From: Spinellus fusiger
Lineage: Eukaryota > Mucoromycota > Mucoromycetes > Mucorales > Phycomycetaceae
Direction: 5' to 3'
DNA length: 64,000 nucleotides
Assembly: GCA_025094145.1 (NCBI GenBank)
Contig: JALLLS010000053.1
Span: forward strand, 1 to 64,000
Shown: one piece after another, positions 3,741 through 47,189 of the stretch
Numbering within the stretch: the first letter of the stretch is position 1
How the letters are laid out: each line of letters starts with the position of its first letter
Made by a program: the position numbers and the translations under genes
Notes under the pieces: generated by a model
What the model was told of the DNA's origin: nothing
What the model saw: the letters and a program-made list of their open reading frames with translations, nothing else
Databases searched by the model: none

Positions 3741-4330
3741 TAATAGTAAAAAAGAATTAGTTTGAGATGTATTAATGTACTCTCTATGTGTGTGTCGTAT
3801 TACCCTTGCACTGGCACCTTCTTCTTGCCTTTGCCTTTGTAACAGATTCACTAGGTTTATTATAGTAAAAGAGTATACAATAGAAACTGACTAACATGTC
3901 AGACATAATAAACATACACAAACACTCACCAGATCACAACTGTTGGTTTATATGCCAGACAAAGGCAAACAAGTTAGAGGGTAGAATTTATGAAGAACAA
4001 AAGACAGTGTGGTTGGCAGGTATTTATATCCGAACAGAAGAGAACAAAACGAAATTTCACAAGTCATTTGCTTAATCAGAACTACCAAAGTAATATAGAC
4101 TACAGCAACATTCTAGAAAGAAAAAGAATTGCTTAAAGAACAGTTGCCTAGTTACCCGTTGTGATCAAATCGCGTATTGTGTTCCTGTTCATTTATCCTC
4201 TTTGATTTCCTTAGACTAGCCTTTTTATCCAAATTCTATTTTGTCGTCTCTGCTATAGACCCAATATCTACAGATTCATCTCTCTAGTAGTCCTGTTGAT
4301 AACCACAGTGCCCTTTATTACAGATACTTA
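3741..4330. other. Intergenic, no supported feature
   Basis: AT-rich stretch between the transposase relic and the MITE. No long ORF or RNA gene seen. Confidence 0.5.
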
Positions 4331-4793
4331 CAAACCTTTGATTTTAAACACAGTTTTATAAAAGGTGGAACAACGTTATTTATCCAAAAATAAGGCCAGT
4401 CACAATTATTTTACGCTGTAAAATAAATCTCCAAAAAGCCCAAAAATATATAAAATTTAGACAAAAAGACTTAGAAAATAATTTTTTTTAAAAAAAATTA
4501 TATTGAATAATTGAAACAACAATAAATAAAAAAATAAAGTGACCTGACAAAAGTAATAGAGTTTTTTCCAATGTAGATTTTCTTTTTTAGATTCATGTTC
4601 TATATTAGTAGTGCTATAACTTCATGAGTTCATTAGATAAAGACATAAAAGTCTCAGTAGATAACAGAAGTTATATATTTTTGGGCTTTTTGGAGATTTA
4701 TTTTACAGCGTAAAATAATTGTGACTGGCCTTATTTTTGGATAAATAACGTTGTTCCACCTTTTATAAAACTGTGTTTAAAATCAAAAGTTTG
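4331..4793. mobile_element. MITE with ~120-bp near-perfect terminal inverted repeats
   Basis: The left arm (4331 to about 4450, starting CAAACCTTTGATTTT) is the reverse complement of the right arm (about 4672 to 4793, ending AAATCAAAAGTTTG). I see a single mismatch, at 4336, over roughly 118 bp. The interior (about 4451-4671) is AT-rich and non-coding. CAGATA stands at 4321-4326 on the left and at 4794-4799 directly after the right end; this could be part of an imperfect 9-10 bp target duplication, as MULE-type elements make. The near identity of the arms points to recent insertion or to arm homogenisation. Confidence 0.8.
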
Positions 4794-4832
4794 CAGATAT
4801 CCAGATATTTATTTTGTTCAAAAGCCCAAAAA

Positions 4833-5050
4833 ACAAGAGGTGTGTTAAGTTGGTAAAAAGGTATATTTCTCAAAGACTTAATTCTTCAAAATCTAAAGAC
4901 TACTTATACACTTCTTCTAAGGTATTTCTGATACAAGACTAATTTTCAATAGCATTCTCTATAAAAAATGCACGGACAATAGTCTTCCCTTCTCTAGCTT
5001 CTAGGGACAGAATCTTTCCTTATTTGTAACAATTTCTTTTTATGGATACC
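4833..5050. repeat. Diverged dispersed repeat shared with ~32780-33000
   Basis: The segment reads CAAGAGGTGTGTTAAG, then GGTAAAAAGGTATATTTCTC, then AGACTACTTATACACTT. A clearly related but diverged copy begins at 32781 (CAAGTGGTGTGTTTGG, TATATTTCTCAAAG, ACTACTTATATACTTTT). Both copies sit beside Tc1-type relics, so they may be transposon non-coding ends. Identity was judged by eye only. Confidence 0.35.
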
Positions 5051-5254
5051 TCACTATCAAGTTGTATTATCAGTAAAATAGTGTTGATGAATGAAATTGT
5101 TTATTATAATAGTATAGCTAATACTATAGTATGACTATAGCGACTGCCCAAGTAAATTCCCTCATAGCAATAGAATCTACAACCTAAAAGACTTGTGCTT
5201 TATCCTTGGGAGATAGATAACTATACTCAGGAGTATACCCTAGACACCCTAGAC

Positions 5255-5390
5255 AGTATAGAGGAAAGAAGGGTATCTATTATCAATGTAGAAAGTTGGT
5301 ATTGAACTTGCACAACGATGAGTTCAGAGTATGACAGACAGATGCCAAGATGTCATTGATGCCAAAGAAGGCCATACAAAATATTAATTG
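5255..5390 (+). pseudogene. Tc1/mariner transposase C-terminal fragment
   Basis: The sequence starting GAGGAAAGAAGGGTATCTAT, and its end GGCCATACAAAATATTAA, match the tail of the longer Tc1 relic at 36760-36925 (E-E-R-R-V-S-I and G-H-T-K-Y). The middle of that tail is missing here and several bases differ, so this is a truncated, internally deleted copy. No N-terminal part lies immediately upstream. Confidence 0.6.
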
Positions 5391-5399
5391 TATTAATAT

Positions 5400-6270
5400 T
5401 ATTTCATTCTCTATAATCGAATATACTAAGCTTTGATATGCTCAAGTCTGAAGCTTCTAAATAAAATGTAAAGTGTTTTATTTAATCATGAACAGTTTCT
5501 GTCTGCTTCATCCTGATATTTATACTCAAAGGTATTTGATTCAATTGTGTGTGGCTGTATTAACACTTTCTTGAACAAGTATGTTTATCCTAATTATATA
5601 CCCAATAGCATTATTTGAGTGAACCATCTTCAAAATAGATATACAGGCTGTTGTGGATATGGCTATTTGTACAAAAGTCATTACAATTGTCCAAACAATG
5701 ATAGATACCAAACAGAAAGTAGAGACATTATGATATGATCAAGAGATGGTAGCATACTGCAAAAAATGAGTAAAATGAATCAGGCATACAATCCTATGAG
5801 ATATGTACTTCTTCTTATAGGATAAGCTGTAGTATATTTGAATAAAGTGTATTGATCTTTCAGAGATAATATAAAAGTACAACAGCCTGCATTAGAATGT
5901 ATGCCTTTTGGTGTTGATTTCTGCCAAGTTTTCCTATTTGTAGTAATCATTAAAGTATAAAAGAAGTATAAAAGAATAACAAACAAGTTGAATAAATAAG
6001 AGCATAGTTAATTGTACGTTAACTAAACCAAATACCTTTGGACCTAAGAAGTCATTAACGACACCATCACATCAATGAATGATAAATAGTAGCTGACACT
6101 ATTCAGTGTTGCTAATAAGATAACTATCTATTTCCTTTTTCTTATTGTATTTCTATCTATTATTTCTGAACTAAAGGTGTTATGCAGCCAACAATATACA
6201 AATAAAGTAAAAAAGATATAATATGTTTATAGAATCAATCTGGGGTTCTTAAATATATTTGATTTTTATA
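5400..6270. other. Intergenic, no supported feature
   Basis: AT-rich sequence with only short spurious ORFs. Nothing recognised. Confidence 0.5.
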
Positions 6271-27628: not shown

Positions 27629-30560
27629 ATGCTTATTAAACCTTTGTCTGAAGACTATGTTCTCAGATTGCGCCCTCATCAAGTAGATGGCCCTGCTACT
27701 CCGCGTGAATTTGCTCATTGGAATATTGCCATGAAGAAGTGGCGTCGGGAGAAACTAGAAAAGACTCCAAAAGACTCTATTACTGTGGGCTATGATGTGC
27801 CCAATCTCATAGTAAGAAGTGCTGTTCCTTACAGTGACTAATGTTCTAGTGGATGCAATCCAACTACGCTCAACTCCATGTGATGGCCCATGATATTTTC
27901 TTGTTTGATTACAAGACAAATACTTACACAGTAGACCGTTTCTTAAAGGGTAAATTTCTATCTATTCTTTGTCTTTGGCTCACATACCACAGATACGGAA
28001 GAGCGGTATGGTTTGATAGACTCTGTCGTTGTAAGTGGCTATTCTATTTTACATTTTGTTTCTATATTGATTCCATAATAAACATAAACATAAATTAACA
28101 AAGAGTGGATAGATTTGGCCTGTATTCCCCAACCTGGGGTGTGATAGTCGCAATACAGAGGATTTCTTTCGTTCTCTTCCTGGTGGTAAGCCAACCATAG
28201 ACCAACAGTGTAGTGACCGATCATGCAACTTAGGCACATACGGCACACGGGGACTTGTTGAACAGTTCCATCAGCGCAATGTCAGGGTCATCTTTTCTGT
28301 ATTACCATGGGATAATGGCACAGTAAGTGGTGGAGTCCAGACAAACATCTAACAAATGATCAGCGTGACCCCCAGGCAGATTGGAGTTATGTCTTGCCTC
28401 GTCTGATGAGTAAGAAGCAGACTATTCTATCTATTTATCCAATGATGTCTTAATAACATATACAACAGAGGAGTACCATGTCGATGGCATGCTGAGTGAA
28501 GTGGCCTATTTCACCCAAGAGTATTGGTTGACTTCTCTTGCCATTGGTTATCCATTAGTGCTCCAGTCTGCTGCAGATGTCCCTGAGACAATGAACAGAT
28601 CTTCGAATGAAGATGATACATCCGTAAGTTTTTGTTCGATTCTTTCTTATTCTAAACAACAGGATAGTTTTTACGCTTTAACACTACAGACACGGGTAAG
28701 TTGAACTGAGATTGGACTTTCAATTGAATCTAATCGTCTGCTGTTTCTATAGCCAAATATGATACACGACTGTATGTATGGATAGAATGAGCTGATTTCC
28801 TCTTTATATTTCTGTTGGGCACTGACTCAATGGATTCTTCTCTAGTCGTATTCCTACCGTTGCCTCTCGAAAATACACAGAGTCCAGGCATATGACCCAT
28901 TCTACTGACAGATGGTCTCGTAACAAGACAGACTTGATTCAACATGCATTCTTTAATGGTATTTTCTCTCTTTTTTCTCCTTTTCTTTCTTTTCTTTTCT
29001 TATTTGTCTTTTTATCTTTTTATCTTTCTCATTACACTAATAACAATGATTAGGCATTGGTGTTGATACTTGGGAGAATATCTTTGGTACATGGAACCAA
29101 ATGACACCCCGTGATGGTGAGGCACTTCGTCGTACGAGTAGTATTCTCCGTGCCTTTGGTCCTACTTTCTTGAGTTCACCAGAATGGGAGCCTCACTCAC
29201 CTTGCATCAATTACAAGAACGTATTCAGCAGCAAATGGAAATCCACTGCGTGTCCTGAACAATCCTTATGGACATTTGTCAACAGAGGCCCCTTCCAAGT
29301 GAATGGACATCAAATAGTTGTAGGGTATCGTATAGGTCTGCAGTTCTATGATGTGTGGCATGGACGTGAGTTGTATCCTTCCAACATTGTCGATGGATTG
29401 GCCACCCTCACGTTTGATATTGAACCCAAGGGCTATGGATGTATATTTGCATCGCCCGACATGACAGAGCTGCCTTTCCATTTCAACGAGTGTCTTGCCT
29501 TTATGGCGGAGAGATCCAAGATACCTCTACAGAACTATCCTATCTCCAACTCCATCTTGTGGCAGGAGTTGGATGAGATCAAGGTGTCTCCTATTGTAAA
29601 ACAGACACCACCTTCTATGGTCAGAATTGATGGGGACCAATATCAGTTCCGTATCAATGGCCGTGAAAACCACCCACCAGGCATTGAATATCCCGGTGTT
29701 GACATTCAATACCCCTGGGAGTAAGTCCATGTGTAGAGCTAGACTAGAGTCACTCACTGGAGACAATCTTTTCTTATTTATTATTTGTTTAATTATTTAT
29801 TTGTTTATTTTATAGATTTGAACCTACTCGCATCCATTCTTCACATCAAATCAAAATGAGACCCTTTTATATAGATGTGTTTCCAGTCACTGAGAAACAG
29901 TTCAAGGAGTTTCTGGATGTTTCTCATTACCAACCTTCTGATCCCACCAACTTCCTCAAGCACTGGTCGGATGGCACTTACCCATGCGACACAGGTAATA
30001 AACCTGTCACTCATGTCTCTATTGAAGATGCACGTGCCTATGCACAGTGGGCAGGAAAGAGGTAATGTTTGTTTTAATGAGAGAGCAACTACCAATACTT
30101 TAGATTGCCACACGAATGGGAGTGGCAGTATGTAGCTCAAGGGGGTGTCGAGTATCGCACATACCCCTGGGGTGATATCTGGGATGATGAACGTGTTCCT
30201 GAGTCCTATACTGGCCGAGACCGCCTCTATCCTAATCATCCACCAGCTGATGTGGATGCCCATGTTCAAGGACGGTCTGTATTTGGTGTCTATGATCTTG
30301 TGGGCAACGTGTGGGAATGGACAGATGTCTATGTGGATGAACACACAAGAGCTGCAGTGATTCGAGGTGGATCTTATTACACTCCCCAGCACAGTGACCG
30401 ATATTTCCCACAGGCCTACCGTAATGACGAGCATGGCAAGTACCTGCTCATGTCTCCTTCTATGGACCGATCAGGAACCATTGGATTCCGTTGTGTAAAA
30501 GATACAGAAGAGAGTGCTGCTGCCTATGGTAACTGTCCATGGTATGGCCAAGAAGATTAA
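27629..30560 (+). CDS. Glycosidase-like N-terminal domain fused to a C-terminal FGE-sulfatase (SUMF1/EgtB/PvdO-type) domain, 753 aa
   Basis: Exons: 27629-27811, 27850-27949, 27993-28030, 28113-28322, 28364-28409, 28469-28623, 28668-28695, 28753-28771, 28846-28958, 29054-29720, 29816-30061, 30104-30560 (2262 nt, in frame). The N-terminal part holds IWPVFPNLGCDSRNTEDF, VRVIFSVLPWDNGTRDPQAD, RWSRNKTDLIQHAFFNGIGV and TWENIFGTWNQMTPRDGEAL, typical of an uncharacterised glycoside-hydrolase-like domain also found in bacteria. From residue about 520 on it is an FGE domain: PFYIDVFPVTEKQFKEFL, HVSIEDARAYAQWAGKRLPH, EWEWQYVAQGG, GNVWEWTDVY, RGGSYYT and IGFRCVKD. FGE-fold proteins convert sulfatase cysteine to formylglycine or act as non-haem iron enzymes; which applies here is unknown. 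No signal peptide is visible. Confidence 0.85.
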
Positions 30561-32099: not shown

Positions 32100-33480
32100 C
32101 AGATCCATTTCAGCAGTAAGCTGTTGTATGGGTCTGATGGTGGAAGAGAGAACAAGAGAAGAGGTAAATGGTTGGTTCTAGAAGACAGTGAAAGAAGGCC
32201 TCTTGAATGTAATGGGCTACTGGGAACAGGTAGGCAAATAATACTAGGTGTTGTGTAAATTGGACAGAGGATAGTTTTGGGTAGTATCTGATAGCAGATA
32301 TCAGAATGCATATTTTATTATGACAATTAGATAAGTATTTATATTATGTTTCTGTGGTACTATCCAATTCCCAAGTGATAAATGCTGTGATAAAATAAAG
32401 AAATGTATGATGAATGATGGGTAAGAACCAAGAGTTATTGTGATAGAGAGGTGAACGGTGATGGACACAGTTATCCCAGTAGTCTTCAAGATTTGGAGGT
32501 AGCTTTTTTTTTAACGATGGGAGAAAATCCCCAAGGATACTACAGACAACCTCATTTCAAGCATGCATAGAAGATACTAGGCTGTCATTAATACCAAGGG
32601 TGGAAACAATAAATATTGATATTTTTCACCCAATAAACTTACATCTATTATTCTATTGACTTTCTTTGTACTTCATTCAATTTCCAAGTCTTTATTATAT
32701 GTTTAATGTATTATTATAAATTATAAAGTATTCAATCCCTGCCATATATTAATATGCTACTGTTCAGAAACGACGAGGAACAAGTGGTGTGTTTGGTAAT
32801 AAAAGAGTTATATTTCTCAAAGTTATATACTACAACATTTGCAACTACTTATATACTTTTCAGACTATGTTAGATTAATATAATTTATACAATAGCAATG
32901 TGTCTTGGAATGTACGAGTCAAATTCATCTACATCCTCAACACTAAGAATCCTCCCCATGCTTTTGGAAGAGATTGCTTTTGTAATTTTATATAGATTAA
33001 TGTATCATATAGAAAAGTTATATAAGCTATCTATCTATTAGATGGAAGAAAGCTTTGCGATTTTTCTTTTATATTACAAACACACCTTTTGTTTCTGATT
33101 TTTTGAACAGTATGTTTTAATGATAAGGAGAAAGTATTTCCTATTACAGAAGCATATTAGAATCTAAAAAATCTACCTAAGATTTTCACAAGCCATTGTA
33201 ACAAAAAATTTAAGTTCTTATAGGGTGGCCAACATGTCCAATACGTGAATAGCAACTCGACACCTAAAATAATAATAAAATATACTTTGGATTGTATGTT
33301 ATGTCTTGATACAGTCACACAAAATTAGAAAGCATACGACTCCCTAATTTATACATTTTTAAACATGATTCTTCTTCTTTTTTACCACAGAATCACATTC
33401 CATTAAGCAATCTCAAATGTCAAACGCAGAATCCTCAACTAGAAACTATAGAGTTTATAATAAGCTTGAAGAAAATAGAT
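32100..33480. other. AT-rich transposon-flanking DNA, no gene
   Basis: Contains the diverged repeat shared with 4833-5050 (from about 32781). No intact ORF. Confidence 0.45.
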
Positions 33481-33481
33481 T

Positions 33482-34490
33482 AATGAGGTGTTTATTGGCT
33501 TAAAAAATGAAAGTTACTCCATGGGTAGCATTTCAAAGGTCATTGGCATTAGCAAGACTACTGTCCAAAAGATCATTAGTAGAATCAAGACTAATGGCAC
33601 ACCTCTACCAAGACCTAGTTCTAGTGCACCAAAAAAAAACTAAACGAGAGAGACCTCAGACGGCTTGAGGCCATTCTAAGAGGCAACCCATTTGCCTCCT
33701 ATAACTTCATAAATTTTGAACTTAAGGCACATCAGATAATCATCTGTAGAGCAATATTAATCAAATACATACATCAGATTGAGTTTGGTTCCTACTTTGC
33801 AGCACACAAGCCAAGGTTGTCTGAAGAAAATATGAAGAAAAAGACTTCGTTGGGCAAAGGAGCGGGTCAATTGAACCCCTAAGGACTGGAGACATGTTGT
33901 ATAGGCTGATGAGCCACGGTTTGAAGTAGAGGGTTACCAGGGAGGAGCCAGTGGGATTCGAAAGATTGGAGAAAGATACAAGACTGTTCATAGTATGCCC
34001 ACAACCAAAATAGAAGAAAAGCGGCCTAATGATCTGGAGCTGTTTCTGAGCGGGTGGATTTAGGCCTTTGGTCTTTGTTGATAGCACTGTGAATCAGGAC
34101 GTATACGTCAACATTTTGGCAGGAAAATTTCTGCCATGGTTTATTGAATTGAATGAAAAAGAGGATAAGGACTTTATATTCCAAGAAGATGGGGTTATCT
34201 GCCATATAGGCGGCTATACAACATGGTGGAAAAACACACACGCGATCAGGCGTTTTGATTACTGGCCTGCCCAAAGTCCTGATCTCAACCCCATCGAATA
34301 TCTCTGGAACTGTCTTGATAAGCCTATCGATAACAAGAGAGCCATTAATAATAATATCGACGAGCTCAAGACAACTTTAGAAGAAGCTTGGGGAAATATC
34401 CACGTTGATCTTGCCGAACGTTTAGTTGGCTCAATAAAAGATTGCTACCAGACAGTTATTGATGCCAAAGGTGGCCCAACAAAATATTAA
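33482..34490 (+). pseudogene. Decayed Tc1-type DDE transposase with intact C-terminal half
   Basis: The helix-turn-helix part (SMGSISKVIGISKTTVQKII, 33482-33643) ends at a stop. Then come a middle region with frame changes (NPFASYNF; ADEPRFEVEGYQGG, with a stop just before it) and an intact 3' ORF from about 34068 to 34490. The latter includes VFVDSTVNQDVYVNIL, FQEDGVICHIGGYTTWW, YWPAQSPDLNPIEYLWN and IDAKGGPTKY. Q-E-D-G and P-D-L-N-P-I-E carry the second and third catalytic acids. Stops and frameshifts upstream make it inactive as it stands. It directly precedes the poly-HTH gene, and its HTH resembles the repeat unit there. Confidence 0.75.
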
Positions 34491-34667
34491 ATAAAAAATT
34501 CTTTATATAAATATATTACTATAAAAAATATGTTAAACTAACTTTGTGTTGAATTTGAGGTCATTAGTATGTGTTTTGAGGTCGTAACATTTATATCCGT
34601 GAAGCATGTTTTTTTTTTCAGGATTTCAAAAAAGAGAAATCGTACCCTTTCTAATGTTGTGTGACTG

Positions 34668-34675
34668 TATAAAAA
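34668..34675 (+). promoter_or_regulatory. Candidate TATA box of the poly-HTH gene
   Basis: TATAAAAA about 90 nt upstream of the preferred ATG at 34765. Its position favours that start over the earlier in-frame ATG at 34606, which lies upstream of it. Confidence 0.45.
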
Positions 34676-34764
34676 CAGTTCGGAATCTGAAATATCCGGG
34701 TTTGTTTTCTGTTTACTTTATTTACACCGGACATTGTATATCAATTATCTACCTTCATTACTCA

Positions 34765-36090
34765 ATGTCTATTTCATTCACTGAAGAAGAAAATGACATT
34801 GAAAAAGCCTTCACGAATGAAGAAGCAACCATAACTGAACAACCAACCAACACAGAGAAAAAGGACAATAATAAACAGAATTTCAGTGATGAAGATACCC
34901 ACAAGACTCATAAAAAGGGGAAACGTGTTGAAGACATGCGCAAAACTATTGTACATGAACACAAGGTCAATGGACTCACTCAAGAAAAGATAGCTGCCAT
35001 GTTTGGCACTAGCCAAGTGAATGTTAGTGAAATATTGAATGAACATACACTTAGTACTGGAATTCCACATAAGACTCATAAAAAGGGGAAACGTGTTGAT
35101 GAAGACATGCGCAAAACTATCGTACATGAACACATTAACAATGGACTTAGTCAAGAAAAAATAGCTGCCCTGGCTGGCATTAGCAAATCGACTGTTGGCA
35201 TAGTATTGAGGAAACATACACTTAGTACTGGAATCCCCCATAAGACTCATAAAGTGGGAAAACGTGTTGATGAAGACATGCGCAAAACTATCGTACATGA
35301 ACACATTAACAATGGACTCAGTCAAGAAAAAATAGCTGCCATGGCTGGCATTAGCAAATCGACTGTTGGCATAGTATTGAGGAAACATACACTTAGTACT
35401 GGAATCCCCCATAAGACTCGTAAAAAGGGAAAACGTGTTGATGAAGACATGCGCAAAACTATCGTACATGAACACAAGGTCAATGGACTCAGCCAAAGGA
35501 AGATAGCTGCCATAGTGGGCACCAGTACATATACTATTAGTAAAATATTGAATGAACATACACTTAGTACTGGAATTCCACATAAGACTCGTAAAAAGGG
35601 AAAACGTGTTGATGAAGACATGCGCAACACTATTGTACATGAACACATTAACAATGGACTCACTCAAGAAAAAATAGCTGCTATAGTGGGCAATGACAAA
35701 TCGACTGTTAGTAAAATATTGAGGAAACATACACTTAGTACTGGAATCCCCCATAAGACTCGTAAAGTGGGAAAATGTGTTGATGAAGATATGCGCAGCA
35801 CTATTGTACATGAACACAAGGTCAATGGACTCAGCCAAAGGAAGATAGCTGCCATAGTGGGCACCAGTACATATACTATTAGTAAAATATTGAATGAACA
35901 TACACTTAGTACTGGAATTCCACATAAGACTCGTAAAAAGGGAAAACGTGTTGATGAAGACATGCGCAAAACTATCGTACATGAACACATTAACAATGGA
36001 CTCAGTCAAAAGAAAATAGCTGCTATAGTTGGTATTTGCCATTCGACTGTTAGTAAAATATTGAAGAAGCATACAGCCACACATAATTGA
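34765..36090 (+). CDS. Poly-helix-turn-helix protein: seven tandem 57-residue HTH repeats, 441 aa
   Basis: Intronless ORF. The frame is open from 34606, but the ATG at 34765 (MSISFTEEEN) is preferred: it follows a TATA-like box, and the residues before it look like non-coding translation. Residues 1-45 are acidic and hydrophilic. Repeats begin at 34900, 35068, 35239, 35410, 35581, 35752 and 35923; units are 171 bp except the first (168 bp, one codon short). Consensus: HKTRKKGKRVDEDMRKTIVH, then an NGLSQEKIAA helix, a turn IVGIS and a recognition helix such as KSTVSKILRKH, then TLSTGIP. This is the HTH fold of Tc1-like transposases or related regulators. Two subtypes alternate: K-V-N-G-L with ILNEH (repeats 1, 4, 6) and I-N-N-G-L with LRKH or LKKH (2, 3, 5, 7). 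KKGKR patches could serve as nuclear signals. No catalytic domain is present. The function is unknown; a multivalent DNA-binding protein is inferred. Confidence 0.8.
   Translation: MSISFTEEENDIEKAFTNEEATITEQPTNTEKKDNNKQNFSDEDTHKTHKKGKRVEDMRKTIVHEHKVNGLTQEKIAAMFGTSQVNVSEILNEHTLSTGIPHKTHKKGKRVDEDMRKTIVHEHINNGLSQEKIAALAGISKSTVGIVLRKHTLSTGIPHKTHKVGKRVDEDMRKTIVHEHINNGLSQEKIAAMAGISKSTVGIVLRKHTLSTGIPHKTRKKGKRVDEDMRKTIVHEHKVNGLSQRKIAAIVGTSTYTISKILNEHTLSTGIPHKTRKKGKRVDEDMRNTIVHEHINNGLTQEKIAAIVGNDKSTVSKILRKHTLSTGIPHKTRKVGKCVDEDMRSTIVHEHKVNGLSQRKIAAIVGTSTYTISKILNEHTLSTGIPHKTRKKGKRVDEDMRKTIVHEHINNGLSQKKIAAIVGICHSTVSKILKKHTATHN
34900..36087 (+). repeat. Seven-copy 171-bp tandem repeat within the poly-HTH gene
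   Basis: Units at 34900, 35068, 35239, 35410, 35581, 35752, 35923. Units 4 and 6 are almost identical over their second half. Units 4-5 and 6-7 form a two-unit higher-order pair. GTGGG replaces AAGGG at the same place in units 3 and 6. This indicates unequal crossing-over or gene conversion. Confidence 0.95.
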
Positions 36091-36182
36091 ATTTAATACT
36101 TGCCTAAATTTTAATAATATTTTTTTTTTGTTTTTTGCATAAAACTCTTATTCTTTCCGAATAGTGTTAAACCAACACAACA

Positions 36183-36925
36183 TGTCAGACACATTTTCAG
36201 AAACTCACACTCATGGAGAATATGAAAAGGCAAAATATAGAAGATGATGGGATATTTATTACCAGTTGAAGACTGGATTAAAGTTGACTGTCATTGTGAG
36301 TGTAGTTGAGATGAAAAAGCCCACAGATCAAAATAGTATCAGAAATATTAAAGAACGTGGGTCACCATTACGTTTAAATAGTCATGGAAAACATAAAACA
36401 TAAAAAATTAATGAGAAGGGCCCTGGACACCCGGAAAAGGTCATTAGAAAGGACTCATTTGCCTCATATAATCAGCTGAAATTGGAGATGTTGAAGATTT
36501 AAGCTGATGTATGTAGAAACACCATTATCAGCTACTACAATAAGTTAGGGTTTGGATTTTTTTATGTAAATCACACTCTGGCCTTGACTGAAAAATACAA
36601 AGAGAAATAACTTGACTGAACAAGGGTGCTAGCTGTCATACTGGGGCCTATACTAGATAGTGGAAAGAGACGCATCAGATTCGAGGCATTGAGTGATCGC
36701 CCACACAATGTCCTGACTTGAACTCAATTGAACATGTCTGATACGCCTTGAAAATATAAATTGAGGAAAGAAGGGTATCTATTAACAATGTAGAATGTTT
36801 GATGGCTCTACTTACAGAGGAGTGGGAGAGAGTTAGTGTTGAACTTGCATAACAATGAGTTCTGAGTACAACAGATAGATTCCAGACAGTCATTGATGCC
36901 AGAGGAGGCCATACAAAATATTAAC
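36183..36925 (+). pseudogene. Second decayed Tc1-type transposase
   Basis: In-order pieces: MSDTFSETHTHGEYEKAKYR, SVVEMKKPTDQNSIRNIKER, VIRKDSFASYNQLKLEML, NTIISYYNKLGFGFFYVNHT, SDRPHNVLT, IEERRVSINNVECLMALLTE and TVIDARGGHTKY. The first two are the HTH region and the last ones the C-terminal domain. Many stops interrupt it, and most of the catalytic core between about 36600 and 36660 is lost. It is of a different subfamily from the copy at 33482, and its tail matches the fragment at 5255. Confidence 0.65.
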
Positions 36926-36929
36926 TATA

Positions 36930-38700
36930 TTATTATTTTATTTTCAATCTGTTGTCTATATATTTATTCAAATTGATGGTACAAACTAAGCTTTAGGTGT
37001 CTTTGATTCTAATCTTGGAGATATTAGTGATATGGAGATGAACATGAGGAGAAAATGATAAAGTCAGTGACCTTAACCAGAGCAAAGACGTAGTACCTGT
37101 TTATAGTCAACGCCACATACACTTGCTTGCATAAATGTCTCACTATGTGTGACTCTAAGAACAATAAAAAAACAGCCAAGTGCTCATTTTCATTACTATT
37201 TTCATTTTTGTTGTTGTTGTATCCAATTCGATAAGAAATGACCCCAACCATGGAGTGCATTTCTGAGAATGGTTCTGTCCTGAGGACAAAATATATCTTA
37301 CAGAGAGATGTACTAGCATACTCATAGGAGATCAGACTGCCCATGATAAGAAACGTCGGGGTTAATATAATAATGTATTCTATGAGAAAAAAGGGCCTTT
37401 ATATTATTGTTTTGAAATGAGATCACACTCTAAACTCGTGTGAATATTATCTATGGCTCCTATTCATTTGTGGATTATATAGCTGTACAGCATATCATCA
37501 GTTATATGCAGAACAATCAACAAGGATTATGATGTGTATACTTTTGATCTAAAAAAAATTGATTCGCGTTTCTTTCCACATATTTCCCACAAACTACATA
37601 ATTGTAGTGCATTTGAATAAGCACATGCTTTTCTAACCAATAACCACGTTCCCTGTGTGCATGATAATTTAGGTGTAACAAATATGCATAGAATGATCAT
37701 ATCGATAAGTTTATAGCGGTGGAAGTATATACCATCTATCATTGAGCAAAAAATCCTATTAAATTTCTTAACCATAGTGAATTATCACAAGTACAGAAGC
37801 GAGATTTCATCAAGTACATACGATAGACTAGCTCATAGTATTTTATCAGTCATGGTCACCATTATAATGATGATGGTGATTATCATTTACGTATAGAAAT
37901 AACAATCTCACCAGGTCTTATGCTAAAATACTGAATCAATCAATAAAAGGTGATAGAGCATCTCAAGCATCTCAATTTAATTTACTCTTTTGGTCTGCCA
38001 AAGAAGAAAGAAAGAAGAAAGACTAATGGGAGACATAGAAAGTACACAAAGTAGTCGTAATAAAAACCAGAGTTTGAGATGAATAAATAAATAAAGTATT
38101 TAAAAGAATAACTATTTATTTATTCATTCATTGTGCACTTAAAGTTTATATCCAAGACATCTATAAAATTTTCGCCATAAGAAAATCTAAGAGAATAATA
38201 ATAATAAAGATTTATATATTAATCTATAAATTTAATACCAAAGTTTATCCAGGTCAGACCATCTTTATTGATGACAAGTAAAAAGACAATTGAAAGACTT
38301 ATAAAATAACTATCACCAACAGAATGCTAAAATTCAAAAGTATATATGGAATACATTCTGTAGCATGAATAAAAATAGTTGTTATTTCAGAATAAATGTT
38401 GTCCTGGATTTAAACTTCACTTGTCGGCATAAGACTCAACGCCCCAATAAGAGTCCTATTACAGCATTTCTATTTCTACTGGTGTTTCTTTATTCTCATA
38501 GTATTTCATTTTCAAAACAAAAAAAACGAGAGATCTTTTTATAGATCTTATGTTTGCTTGTTCCATAAACTGTGTAGAGACAATAGACCATGACCAGTAC
38601 AACAAGGGAGAAGTAATTGAATCTTTATTAATATTGGATAGAGTTACATAAACAAGCTAATGATCATCTTGAATGTTTTTTATAAGAATTTAAGTATAAG
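36930..38700. other. Gene-free AT-rich stretch
   Basis: Only short spurious ORFs on both strands. Nothing recognised. Confidence 0.5.
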
Positions 38701-45159: not shown

Positions 45160-47055
45160 GAACGACTCTTCTATGTATATAGACTATATATCCACTGTAC
45201 ATCTTATTGAATTTATTTGCATAAATAACAAAGACAGTAGACCCTCTATTGTTTATGAACATACATGCTCCTTCAGCTCTTTGTTTTTACATGTTGTTTG
45301 AATTGGGCCATCTTTTTCTTGCTCATGCATTGTAGATCTTTGCTTGTATTTCAAATGAAGTATAGGTGTGCTCTTTTCTACATAGAGATAGCAACAGTCT
45401 AAATGGTTAAAGAATAGGGGATACATGATAGATCCATTGACTGTTCTTGTCATTGGCGTTGGCTTTTGCTTCTTATTTATTGACATGCTCATTCAAAAGA
45501 TCTTGCTGTATCTGTGGGTGGTTGAAATCGCTTTATCAATCCATTAGGGTACACATTGAATATATCAAATATCACCAAGAGGGTCACACCATAATTGTAC
45601 TAATGATAGCTATTTTATACTAGGGGATTCTATCTTTAATCTTAATAATAATAATAATAATAAAGAGAAATAGATTAAAAAAACAAGTATTCACTGGAGT
45701 CAGTGATGCCATAAGGAGTGTTTATATCTATCTCATGAGTGATGGTAAAATACTGTCTTTTCAATTCTCTTTTTGGTTGAGAATAGGCCTAATAAAAATA
45801 AAATCTACTGTTCCTGAAAGGTGGATTCATATCTCAGGCTACTTTATTAATAGAGTCCACTCTATACCTACTGATACTCTTTACTTTATTATTGTTATTG
45901 ACACTGTCCCTTTTCTCTCACACTCAGAAACACAGAGGCCATGTTGGTGCAAATATTACATTGTGGTGTAGAGTAGCCTCTCTTTTATGATACAAACAAG
46001 GGAGCATGCAAAGAAAATTCTTAGTTTCCGATCTTATTCCCAGCATATGAAATAGATCGAATATGTTCAATTGTAGATATACTTTATCATCATTCCATTA
46101 CGGCATTTCAATACATGACAGAAGGGGGTGCCTTGAAATGAGTGTATGAGATCAAACTTGGCCTTTTTTCAGTTAGATGTTTTTTATTTATTTATTTATT
46201 CAATGACAAGTACGTTCATGTTTACGTCATAAATAGAAGCTTTCTTAAGAGTACAAACACAATGCATTTTTATCTTCCTGTTCACCTCGGAAGAGTATTT
46301 ACAAAGAGTGGGGCTCAAGGAGGTTTTATTATCTTTGGATGGACACAACTTTGGATACCCAATAGAAACAAGACAGGTTTTATGTTTAGGAAATAATAAT
46401 GAGATACAAAATACAAAATACAAAACAGTGACTACCAATAATAACAATAACAATAGACATTCTCGAGACTCATTCTATTATCTTTAACAAAAGAGGATTC
46501 TAAAACTAAAAGGAGTTTTGTTCTATGATTGTTTCAGTAACATGTATAGACTCCAGCAGATGAAAATAACAAATGACAATGGGAACTCAGAGAACAGACC
46601 AAGTTTCTTGAAATAAACCGTCATAAAGTTAACTAGTGTGGTTCATAAGAAAAGAGAAAAATACACTATCTTTACCCCTCTATTTTATATATCTCGACCT
46701 TATCATTTGATCATCGCAATCACCATTGATCCTCAACCAAGGCAGATGATAACAATGGCAAATACAGTTGTCTTTGGTATACTAACAATGGGTCCCCATG
46801 TAGTTAGGCTTATGGCATAGCATCCACAGATGTACAATAGGTTTATCTCTATTATAAGACTACTGCTCAGTGAAGGACTATGTATTACCTATGGATTGTG
46901 TTATCAATGCATAGGTAATGTTCTAATAGACTCCAAGCACAGCGACATCTTGCAAGTCAGTCTGTAAGTCAGTCAGTCAAGTTTCATCAAGGCAAGCCAC
47001 TCTCTTTGAATTGATTTATTATAATTATTTATTTCTCATTCACTCTCCTAGGAGT
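45160..47055. other. Gene-poor AT-rich stretch
   Basis: Start of a roughly 10-kb gene desert. A 79-codon minus-strand ORF at 45253-45492 is unsupported by any recognisable domain. Confidence 0.45.
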
Positions 47056-47059
47056 GCGC

Positions 47060-47182
47060 CACGTATTTCCAATACTATCTATACTCCCCTCGGAGTCAGC
47101 CACGTATTTCCAATACTATCTATACTCCCCTCGGAGTCAGCCACGTATTTCCAATACTATCTATACTCCCCTTGGAGTCAGC
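47060..47182. repeat. 41-bp minisatellite, three copies
   Basis: Units start at 47060, 47101 and 47142 (CACGTATTTCCAATACTATC, then TATACTCCCCTCGGAGTCAGC), nearly identical, with decay in the third. A CTCCTAGGAG palindrome precedes them. Confidence 0.9.
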
Positions 47183-47189
47183 CATATTT

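Follow-up and report, generated by a model that had tools for sequence, protein, structure and literature searches.

A 441-codon open reading frame (ORF) in a 64,000-nucleotide stretch of the Spinellus fusiger genome (the window; contig JALLLS010000053.1) encodes an acidic head followed by seven helix-turn-helix (HTH) units of 57 residues, and it has relatives in at least 55 places in the genome. Judging from patterns in these sequences, we consider it probable that the arrays are transposase-derived modular DNA-binding proteins, probably sequence-specific and diversifying in target, a large family of which the window carries a damaged copy. Descent from a transposase, tandem structure, constraint on the scaffold and diversity at the contacts are each apparent as sequence patterns. 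The array does not stand alone in the genome.

The window copy and its transposon insertions

The array ORF runs from ATG to stop at 34765..36090 on the plus strand, with a repeat period of 171 nt (84% matches). Its acidic N-terminal head (MSISFTEEENDIEK..., 34765..34896) is conserved across a group of 13 loci. The head is followed on the same strand by HTH units 1 (34897..35046), 2 (35047..35217), 3 (35218..35388), 4 (35389..35559), 5 (35560..35730), 6 (35731..35901) and 7 (35902..36072). Recognition residues 47, 48, 51 and 52 of the unit are Q V S E in unit 1, K S G I in units 2 and 3, T Y S K in units 4 and 6, K S S K in unit 5 and H S S K in unit 7. The features listed in an earlier, sequence-only reading of this DNA were all found in the sequence: an open frame, seven units, an acidic head, KKGKR linkers of basic character and the quoted recognition helices. 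Pfam models HTH_23 (E 1e-31) and HTH_SB, the Sleeping Beauty transposase HTH (E 1.3e-28), matched six stretches each, as compared with E 1.3e-6 for HTH_psq, indicating that a Psq-type HTH is not the best match.

The sequence-only reading had called the protein intact. By contrast, we observed that the window copy is damaged: its leader is interrupted by one Tc1-type element and its array is cut by another. The upstream element (about 33312..34667, plus strand) has inverted ends CAGTCACACA..., with arms at 33302-33339 and 34640-34677 that are 87% complementary, and is flanked by a TA duplication at 33310-33311 and 34668-34669. It is inserted at a TA located 97 bases before the array ATG, right at the TATAAAA box, such that the TATAAAA at 34668 in the leader, a putative core promoter (34668..34764, plus strand), abuts the right end of the transposon. 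The leader is uninterrupted by this insertion in four other loci (L014, L024, L026 and L032). The stop-to-stop frame spans 34603-36087 and is thus open upstream of the ATG as far as 34603; bases up to 34667 are transposon DNA, and the ATG at 34765 is the start that the paralogues conserve. A remnant of the C-terminal part of a transposase (DDE_3, E 1.9e-7, 34068..34490, plus strand) lies inside this separately inserted element and hence is not part of the array protein. We therefore rejected the array as the front of the flanking transposase, since the DDE remnant sits in a different element, bounded by inverted ends and a TA duplication of its own. Also upstream of the array is the terminal inverted repeat (TIR) end of a short non-autonomous element (33238..33296, minus strand).

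The second Tc1-type element is degenerate (36074..36949, plus strand). It is inserted at the TA at 36072-36073, the position at which a further unit would be expected to start, judging from the borders between the other units; array bases, including the TA, extend to 36073, and everything from 36074 is transposon DNA. Its left end, CAGYCACAC directly after the TA, recurs in L045, L025 and L015. Homology to other copies continues until about 36949, and a right end of the element was not found. The C-terminus of the window protein, TATHN, is wholly or almost wholly transposon-derived, and a tail of the paralogue type is missing; DNA comparison with the tails of seven paralogues found no copy elsewhere in the window (E <= 1e-3). 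The statement that the protein has no other domain holds for the window copy, and the paralogues carry a further tail.

The frame has stayed open across seven repeats, as claimed. We rejected this openness as proof of selection on the window copy, because the antisense frame is open as well: a mechanical antisense ORF, which we do not consider a gene, covers the array at 34774..36084 on the minus strand (436 aa, ATG to stop). Openness of this copy alone therefore proves little. Among 36 arrays with at least three units, in a comparison where the sense frame is stop-free by construction, antisense frame -1 was stop-free in four, including the window array.

Elsewhere in the window are a tandem array with a 41-base unit (47042-47184, 3.5 copies, 95% matches), an ORF with an FGE-sulfatase-type domain (30081-30557, E 7.8e-17) and a gene for a eukaryotic-type ribosomal protein S6 (Ribosomal_S6e, E 8.7e-47).

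Descent of the units and spread of the family

Profile comparisons indicate that the array units descend from the HTH of Tc1-type transposases. The array-unit profile matched the HTH in all 26 transposase loci examined, and the array units have the N-terminal PAI-type HTH that characterises Tc1/mariner transposases, consistent with the HTH_SB match. Reading a resident transposase piece (L012, 755-1468) by eye, we saw one HTH unit of the same kind, then a RED domain and then the beginning of the catalytic region. With a RED profile made from 12 transposase pieces, 8 of 30 array tails matched, at E-values from 6.6e-15 to 0.0033 and in seven cases below 1e-5; by contrast, the best E-value among 600 shuffled tails was 0.038. 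Pfam detected no RED above its cut-off in six tails or in one transposase piece, and the window copy has no RED-bearing tail. The arrays share a homologous unit and, in those eight tails, a putatively homologous RED with Tc1/mariner transposases, but differ from them in lacking the DDE/D catalytic domain, in having 2-10 units rather than one, and in varying at residues 51 and 52, which the transposases keep. The sequence-only reading had named, as something that would count against it, that the array might simply be the known N-terminus of a longer transposase; the transposase origin of the HTH bears this out in part, whereas no array ORF that we read has room for a catalytic domain, none in the 41 loci continuing for more than about 120 residues past its final unit. 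We propose that a Tc1-type transposase N-terminal half (PAI plus RED) would have lost its catalytic part, and that the PAI would then have duplicated in tandem; the profiles support the descent, and the order of these events is our inference.

We searched the assembly (38.1 Mb, 197 contigs) with the array and scored 95 of 385 first-look candidates, yielding at least 100 matches. Merging by hand the 65 matches at E <= 2.1e-20 gave at least 55 array-related places, a few of which may be redundant contigs (C19 and C109 are nearly identical), the shortest matches spanning little over one unit. In the 41 loci that we read, 40 fetched and the window, the arrays have between 2 and 10 units, and many end in an acidic tail that is conserved. 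Head and tail had pN/pS values of 0.57 (66 pairs of 12 sequences) and 0.62, respectively. The tail motif EIKxEHDxSSxxxHLLQA also occurs in modified form (DHDPSSLQALLLLHAG) in distant members, namely L021 and the minus-strand array of L035; head and tail motif may recruit partners. Twelve of the 55 places are dispersed on one contig (C110, 1.17 Mb), about 15 kb or more apart; this contig is possibly a transposon-rich or dispensable region.

Recombination between units would let arrays grow and shrink in multiples of the 171-base unit, and one near-identical pair of loci supports this. Of 2528 aligned bases in L039 and L047, 2524 are the same; inside the array there is one gap of 171 bases, and outside it a single-base gap upstream and ends that do not align. 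L047, which is on a contig of 10 kb, may be an allele or assembly variant of L039. A unit-sized, in-frame change of this kind is what recombination between units predicts.

Variation in the recognition helix

We next consider where the units vary. Units with more than 10 gap codons were dropped, leaving 168 units from 203 matches, and two of these without a contact position were also set aside, leaving 166. Over 155 nearly complete units, entropy was highest at positions 47 (3.19 bits), 48 (3.09), 16 (2.71), 52 (2.67) and 51 (2.29), such that positions 47, 48 and 52 rank first, second and fourth of 57 columns; position 16, in the linker, is as variable as the contact positions. Positions 35-55 of the unit profile align without gaps with residues 168-188 of E. 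coli CRP, placing positions 47, 48 and 52 at CRP residues 180, 181 and 185. In the accessible part of PMC12531629 (Table 1), the specific base contacts of CRP are R180, E181 and R185. The probability that three given columns would all fall in the top four of 57 by chance is 4/29260, with the contact list having been taken from that paper after the entropies were computed. The same portion of PMC12531629 includes R169, Q170, S179, T182 and K188 among the phosphate contacts of CRP. Of the equivalents of these residues in the array unit, as far as that list goes, positions 36, 46 and 49 are largely fixed (Q in 133, S in 116 and T in 139 of the 155 units, respectively), and positions 37 and 55 are variable (entropy 2.23 and 1.99). 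Among the 166 units, positions 47, 48, 51 and 52 show 109 distinct combinations of residues, and positions 47, 48 and 52 show 90. The claim that a fixed scaffold with varied helices marks a modular, multi-site binder is supported by this pattern, with the binding itself putative. Comparison of the array contact residues with the resident Tc1 helix (SL at 51 and 52) revealed no copying.

We measured diversity in a 72-unit subfamily from 20 loci, made up of units whose median distance to those of the window is below 0.22. First- and second-position diversity at codons 47, 48, 51 and 52 was 0.531, compared with 0.167 for third positions of the scaffold, a ratio of 3.18 (2.92-3.46, bootstrap by locus). 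For the other 96 units, the corresponding values were 0.501 and 0.386, a ratio of 1.3. With the same measure taken over columns 14-57, the ratio was 2.97 for the subfamily and 1.58 for all 168 units; the HTHs of 25 Tc1 transposases, invariant for S at 51 and L at 52, gave 0.85. These control loci were picked by hand, mostly from the upper part of the 150 listed transposase matches; 26 were chosen, and L049 was left out because the match kept for it was an array unit. Within the subfamily, silent change is nearly absent at codons 49 and 50, which are flanked by the variable codons, and a residue at a variable position is usually encoded by one codon. The scarcity of silent change at codons 49 and 50 fits neither regional hypermutation nor the exchange of whole cassettes in any simple way, and we rejected both.

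Among 113 units with at most three gap codons, contact residues differed in one of eight pairs with a scaffold DNA difference of up to 2%, in 16 of 20 pairs at 2-4%, and in 105 of 116 pairs at 4-7%. For codon models, fitted to 58 non-identical units of the subfamily (three gap codons at most), and for NG86 estimates, we used a set of six contact codons (46, 47, 48, 51, 52 and 55) that was picked after the entropy table had been seen. Codon-model omega for this set was 1.61, and for 30 random six-codon sets from the same tree it ranged from 0.07 to 3.97, with three of the 30 higher; omega above 1 at the contact codons is not significant alone, and because random sets overlap it, we rejected it as a proof of selection by itself. 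Tree length for the contact codons was 35.7, compared with 3.9-25.9 for the random sets; this rate is the only value outside their range. NG86 pN/pS at the contacts was 1.77, 0.87, 0.80, 0.77 and 0.75 over five distance bins beginning with the closest, and 0.92 for nearest neighbours, with synonymous change at contact codons possibly inflated by multi-step codon paths; the closest bin contains 24 pairs, with 17 nonsynonymous and two synonymous changes. Contact pN relative to pS of the other codons was 0.75, 1.58, 1.99, 1.61 and 0.95 over the five bins, and 1.37 for nearest neighbours. Scaffold pN/pS was 0.39-0.52 over the five bins, and that of the core helix positions was 0.13-0.22 in all bins but the closest (0.47). 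Given the overlap of omega with random codon sets, our conclusion rests on the diversity ratios, the transposase control and the match in position to CRP. Taken as sequence patterns, and with the CRP contacts limited to the part of PMC12531629 available to us, these data indicate that the scaffold, the phosphate-contact equivalents 36, 46 and 49, the head and the tail are kept while the base-reading positions change fast. Each array would then bind a composite site, with one short subsite per unit and basic linkers between.

Alternative readings, likely role and meaning

The arrays could be functionless debris, in which Tc1 N-termini multiplied as a coding minisatellite and segmental duplication spread them, with the recognition residues relaxed. 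Consistent with this, truncation and interruption affect the window copy, at least six further loci appear broken (L012, L013, L022, L023, L024 and L044), flanks are rich in transposons, stop-free repeats propagate open frames, with the window antisense frame open too, and NG86 pN/pS at the contact codons is near 0.8-0.9 in most bins. However, 60 of 65 array matches are stop-free, as compared with 16 of 150 listed matches to the resident Tc1 transposase, although lengths differ in this comparison (about 77-441 query residues for array matches, about 200-237 for transposase matches); few arrays are open in antisense frame -1, and the core helix is constrained in all but the closest bin. Moreover, contact-codon change in the subfamily is threefold above the third-position level of the rest of the unit, which relaxation alone should reach but not exceed. 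We consider debris quite unlikely. An even less likely reading is that the arrays are cargo, accessory DNA-binding proteins of a non-autonomous element that serve its movement. In the head-sharing group (L009, L012-L016, L023, L024, L026, L032, L033, L038 and the window), each of the 13 loci has a TIR-element end on the upstream side of its array, in 11 of them within about 310 bases of the open frame, and three arrays lie between inverted repeats. The arrays of L023 and L033 are flanked by inverted TIR elements of ~730 bases (1536-2265 and 3378-4108 in L023, 1451-2177 and 3119-3843 in L033) that are 99.6-99.7% identical to each other, suggesting conversion between the arms or movement of the whole unit. 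The array of L040 is flanked by longer inverted repeats (352-1902 and 3951-5501) of at least 1551 bases at 100% identity, running off the fetched stretch (coordinates array-oriented throughout). By contrast, in 19 of the 41 loci the flanks read contain no end of this kind at E < 1e-3, and homology between loci stops at various distances. We rejected a single common transposon carrying all arrays, since the ends are shared just in part.

The arrays could also be a host DNA-binding family with another fast-changing target, such as centromere or satellite DNA, recombination hotspots in the manner of PRDM9, or a nuclear or mating-partner conflict. A like pattern of change is described for PRDM9 in the portion of PMC3126818 available to us; on the other hand, inspection by eye of the array ORFs read, and Pfam on the window ORF and some tails, revealed no methyltransferase-like extra domain, and we regard such a target as unlikely. 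For the transposase-derived, diversifying DNA-binding family that we favour, the most likely single role, which we put forward tentatively, would be to recognise and repress genomic targets that change, transposons in particular, by analogy with KRAB zinc-finger arrays. We suggest this role because of the neighbourhood, the transposase origin and the pattern of change. The array contacts are unlike the resident Tc1 helix, leaving simple competition for those transposon ends without direct support.

Transposase HTHs retained as DNA-binding domains are known from Pipsqueak-type and CENP-B-type proteins, Pipsqueak having tandem repeats; to our knowledge, these have few copies and few repeats, and we know of no array-wide diversification among them. 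TAL effectors also read DNA in a modular way, with hypervariable residues in a fixed repeat and one base per repeat, and have a fold unrelated to that of the HTH arrays. Arrays of DNA-reading modules with freely varying contacts are known mainly among metazoan zinc fingers and bacterial TALEs. We found no description of a tandem-HTH family of this kind in the open-licence PMC literature. A comparison of P0001 with 5.8 billion proteins gave no match at E <= 0.001 among the 8000 candidates scored, viral contigs gave no match with A1, and a sequence search of the PDB gave one match, at 0.036, that looks like chance. One metagenomic protein, P0002 (599 aa), is a row of HTH units, eight by a hand-made pattern, but its unit spacing is mostly about 52 aa and it is 25% identical to the window protein. 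As an independent HTH row, it means that the tandem-HTH architecture alone is not unique. The same pattern gives two, one and no units in its relatives P0003, P0004 and P0005. A viral contig (IMGVR_UViG_3300032893_000735, 105.8 kb) has a distant match (31%) to P0002 at L075 1387-1881, and the pattern finds no row of HTH units in its ORFs.

As far as PMC3126818 is accessible, zinc-finger arrays change fast at base-contacting residues in duplicates and in PRDM9, and orthologues other than PRDM9 show few contact changes. KRAB zinc-finger and PRDM9 arrays, as described in that portion, resemble the HTH arrays in their tandem modules, gain and loss of units, large families and fast-changing base contacts. 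The concentration of fast change on base contacts is likewise present in the HTH arrays as a sequence pattern, strongest in the 72-unit subfamily. Unlike those proteins, the arrays consist of units with the Tc1 HTH fold, without zinc and not C2H2 fingers, and no KRAB or SET domain was seen in them. Their sequences thus indicate that the arrays would work like a poly-zinc-finger array, yet are not one, and that they descend from Tc1 transposases, yet are not one. That they form a eukaryotic poly-module DNA-reading system, with diversifying selection on base contacts and a genome-encoded repertoire against transposons as a counterpart of KRAB zinc fingers, we consider possible, though on the unlikely side. 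According to the part of PMC5588721 available to us, freedom of the contacts depends on residues that do not contact bases, and zinc fingers are constrained in fungi, in plants and in other lineages. If the proposed reading is true, an HTH version outside metazoans would mean that a transposase can be the starting point for reinventing the strategy, and the family would be a counterpart of the vertebrate KRAB zinc fingers built from the enemy's own DNA-binding domain. The 166 units with their 109 contact sets would also be a natural dataset for learning an HTH recognition code, and so may lead towards programmable DNA binding.
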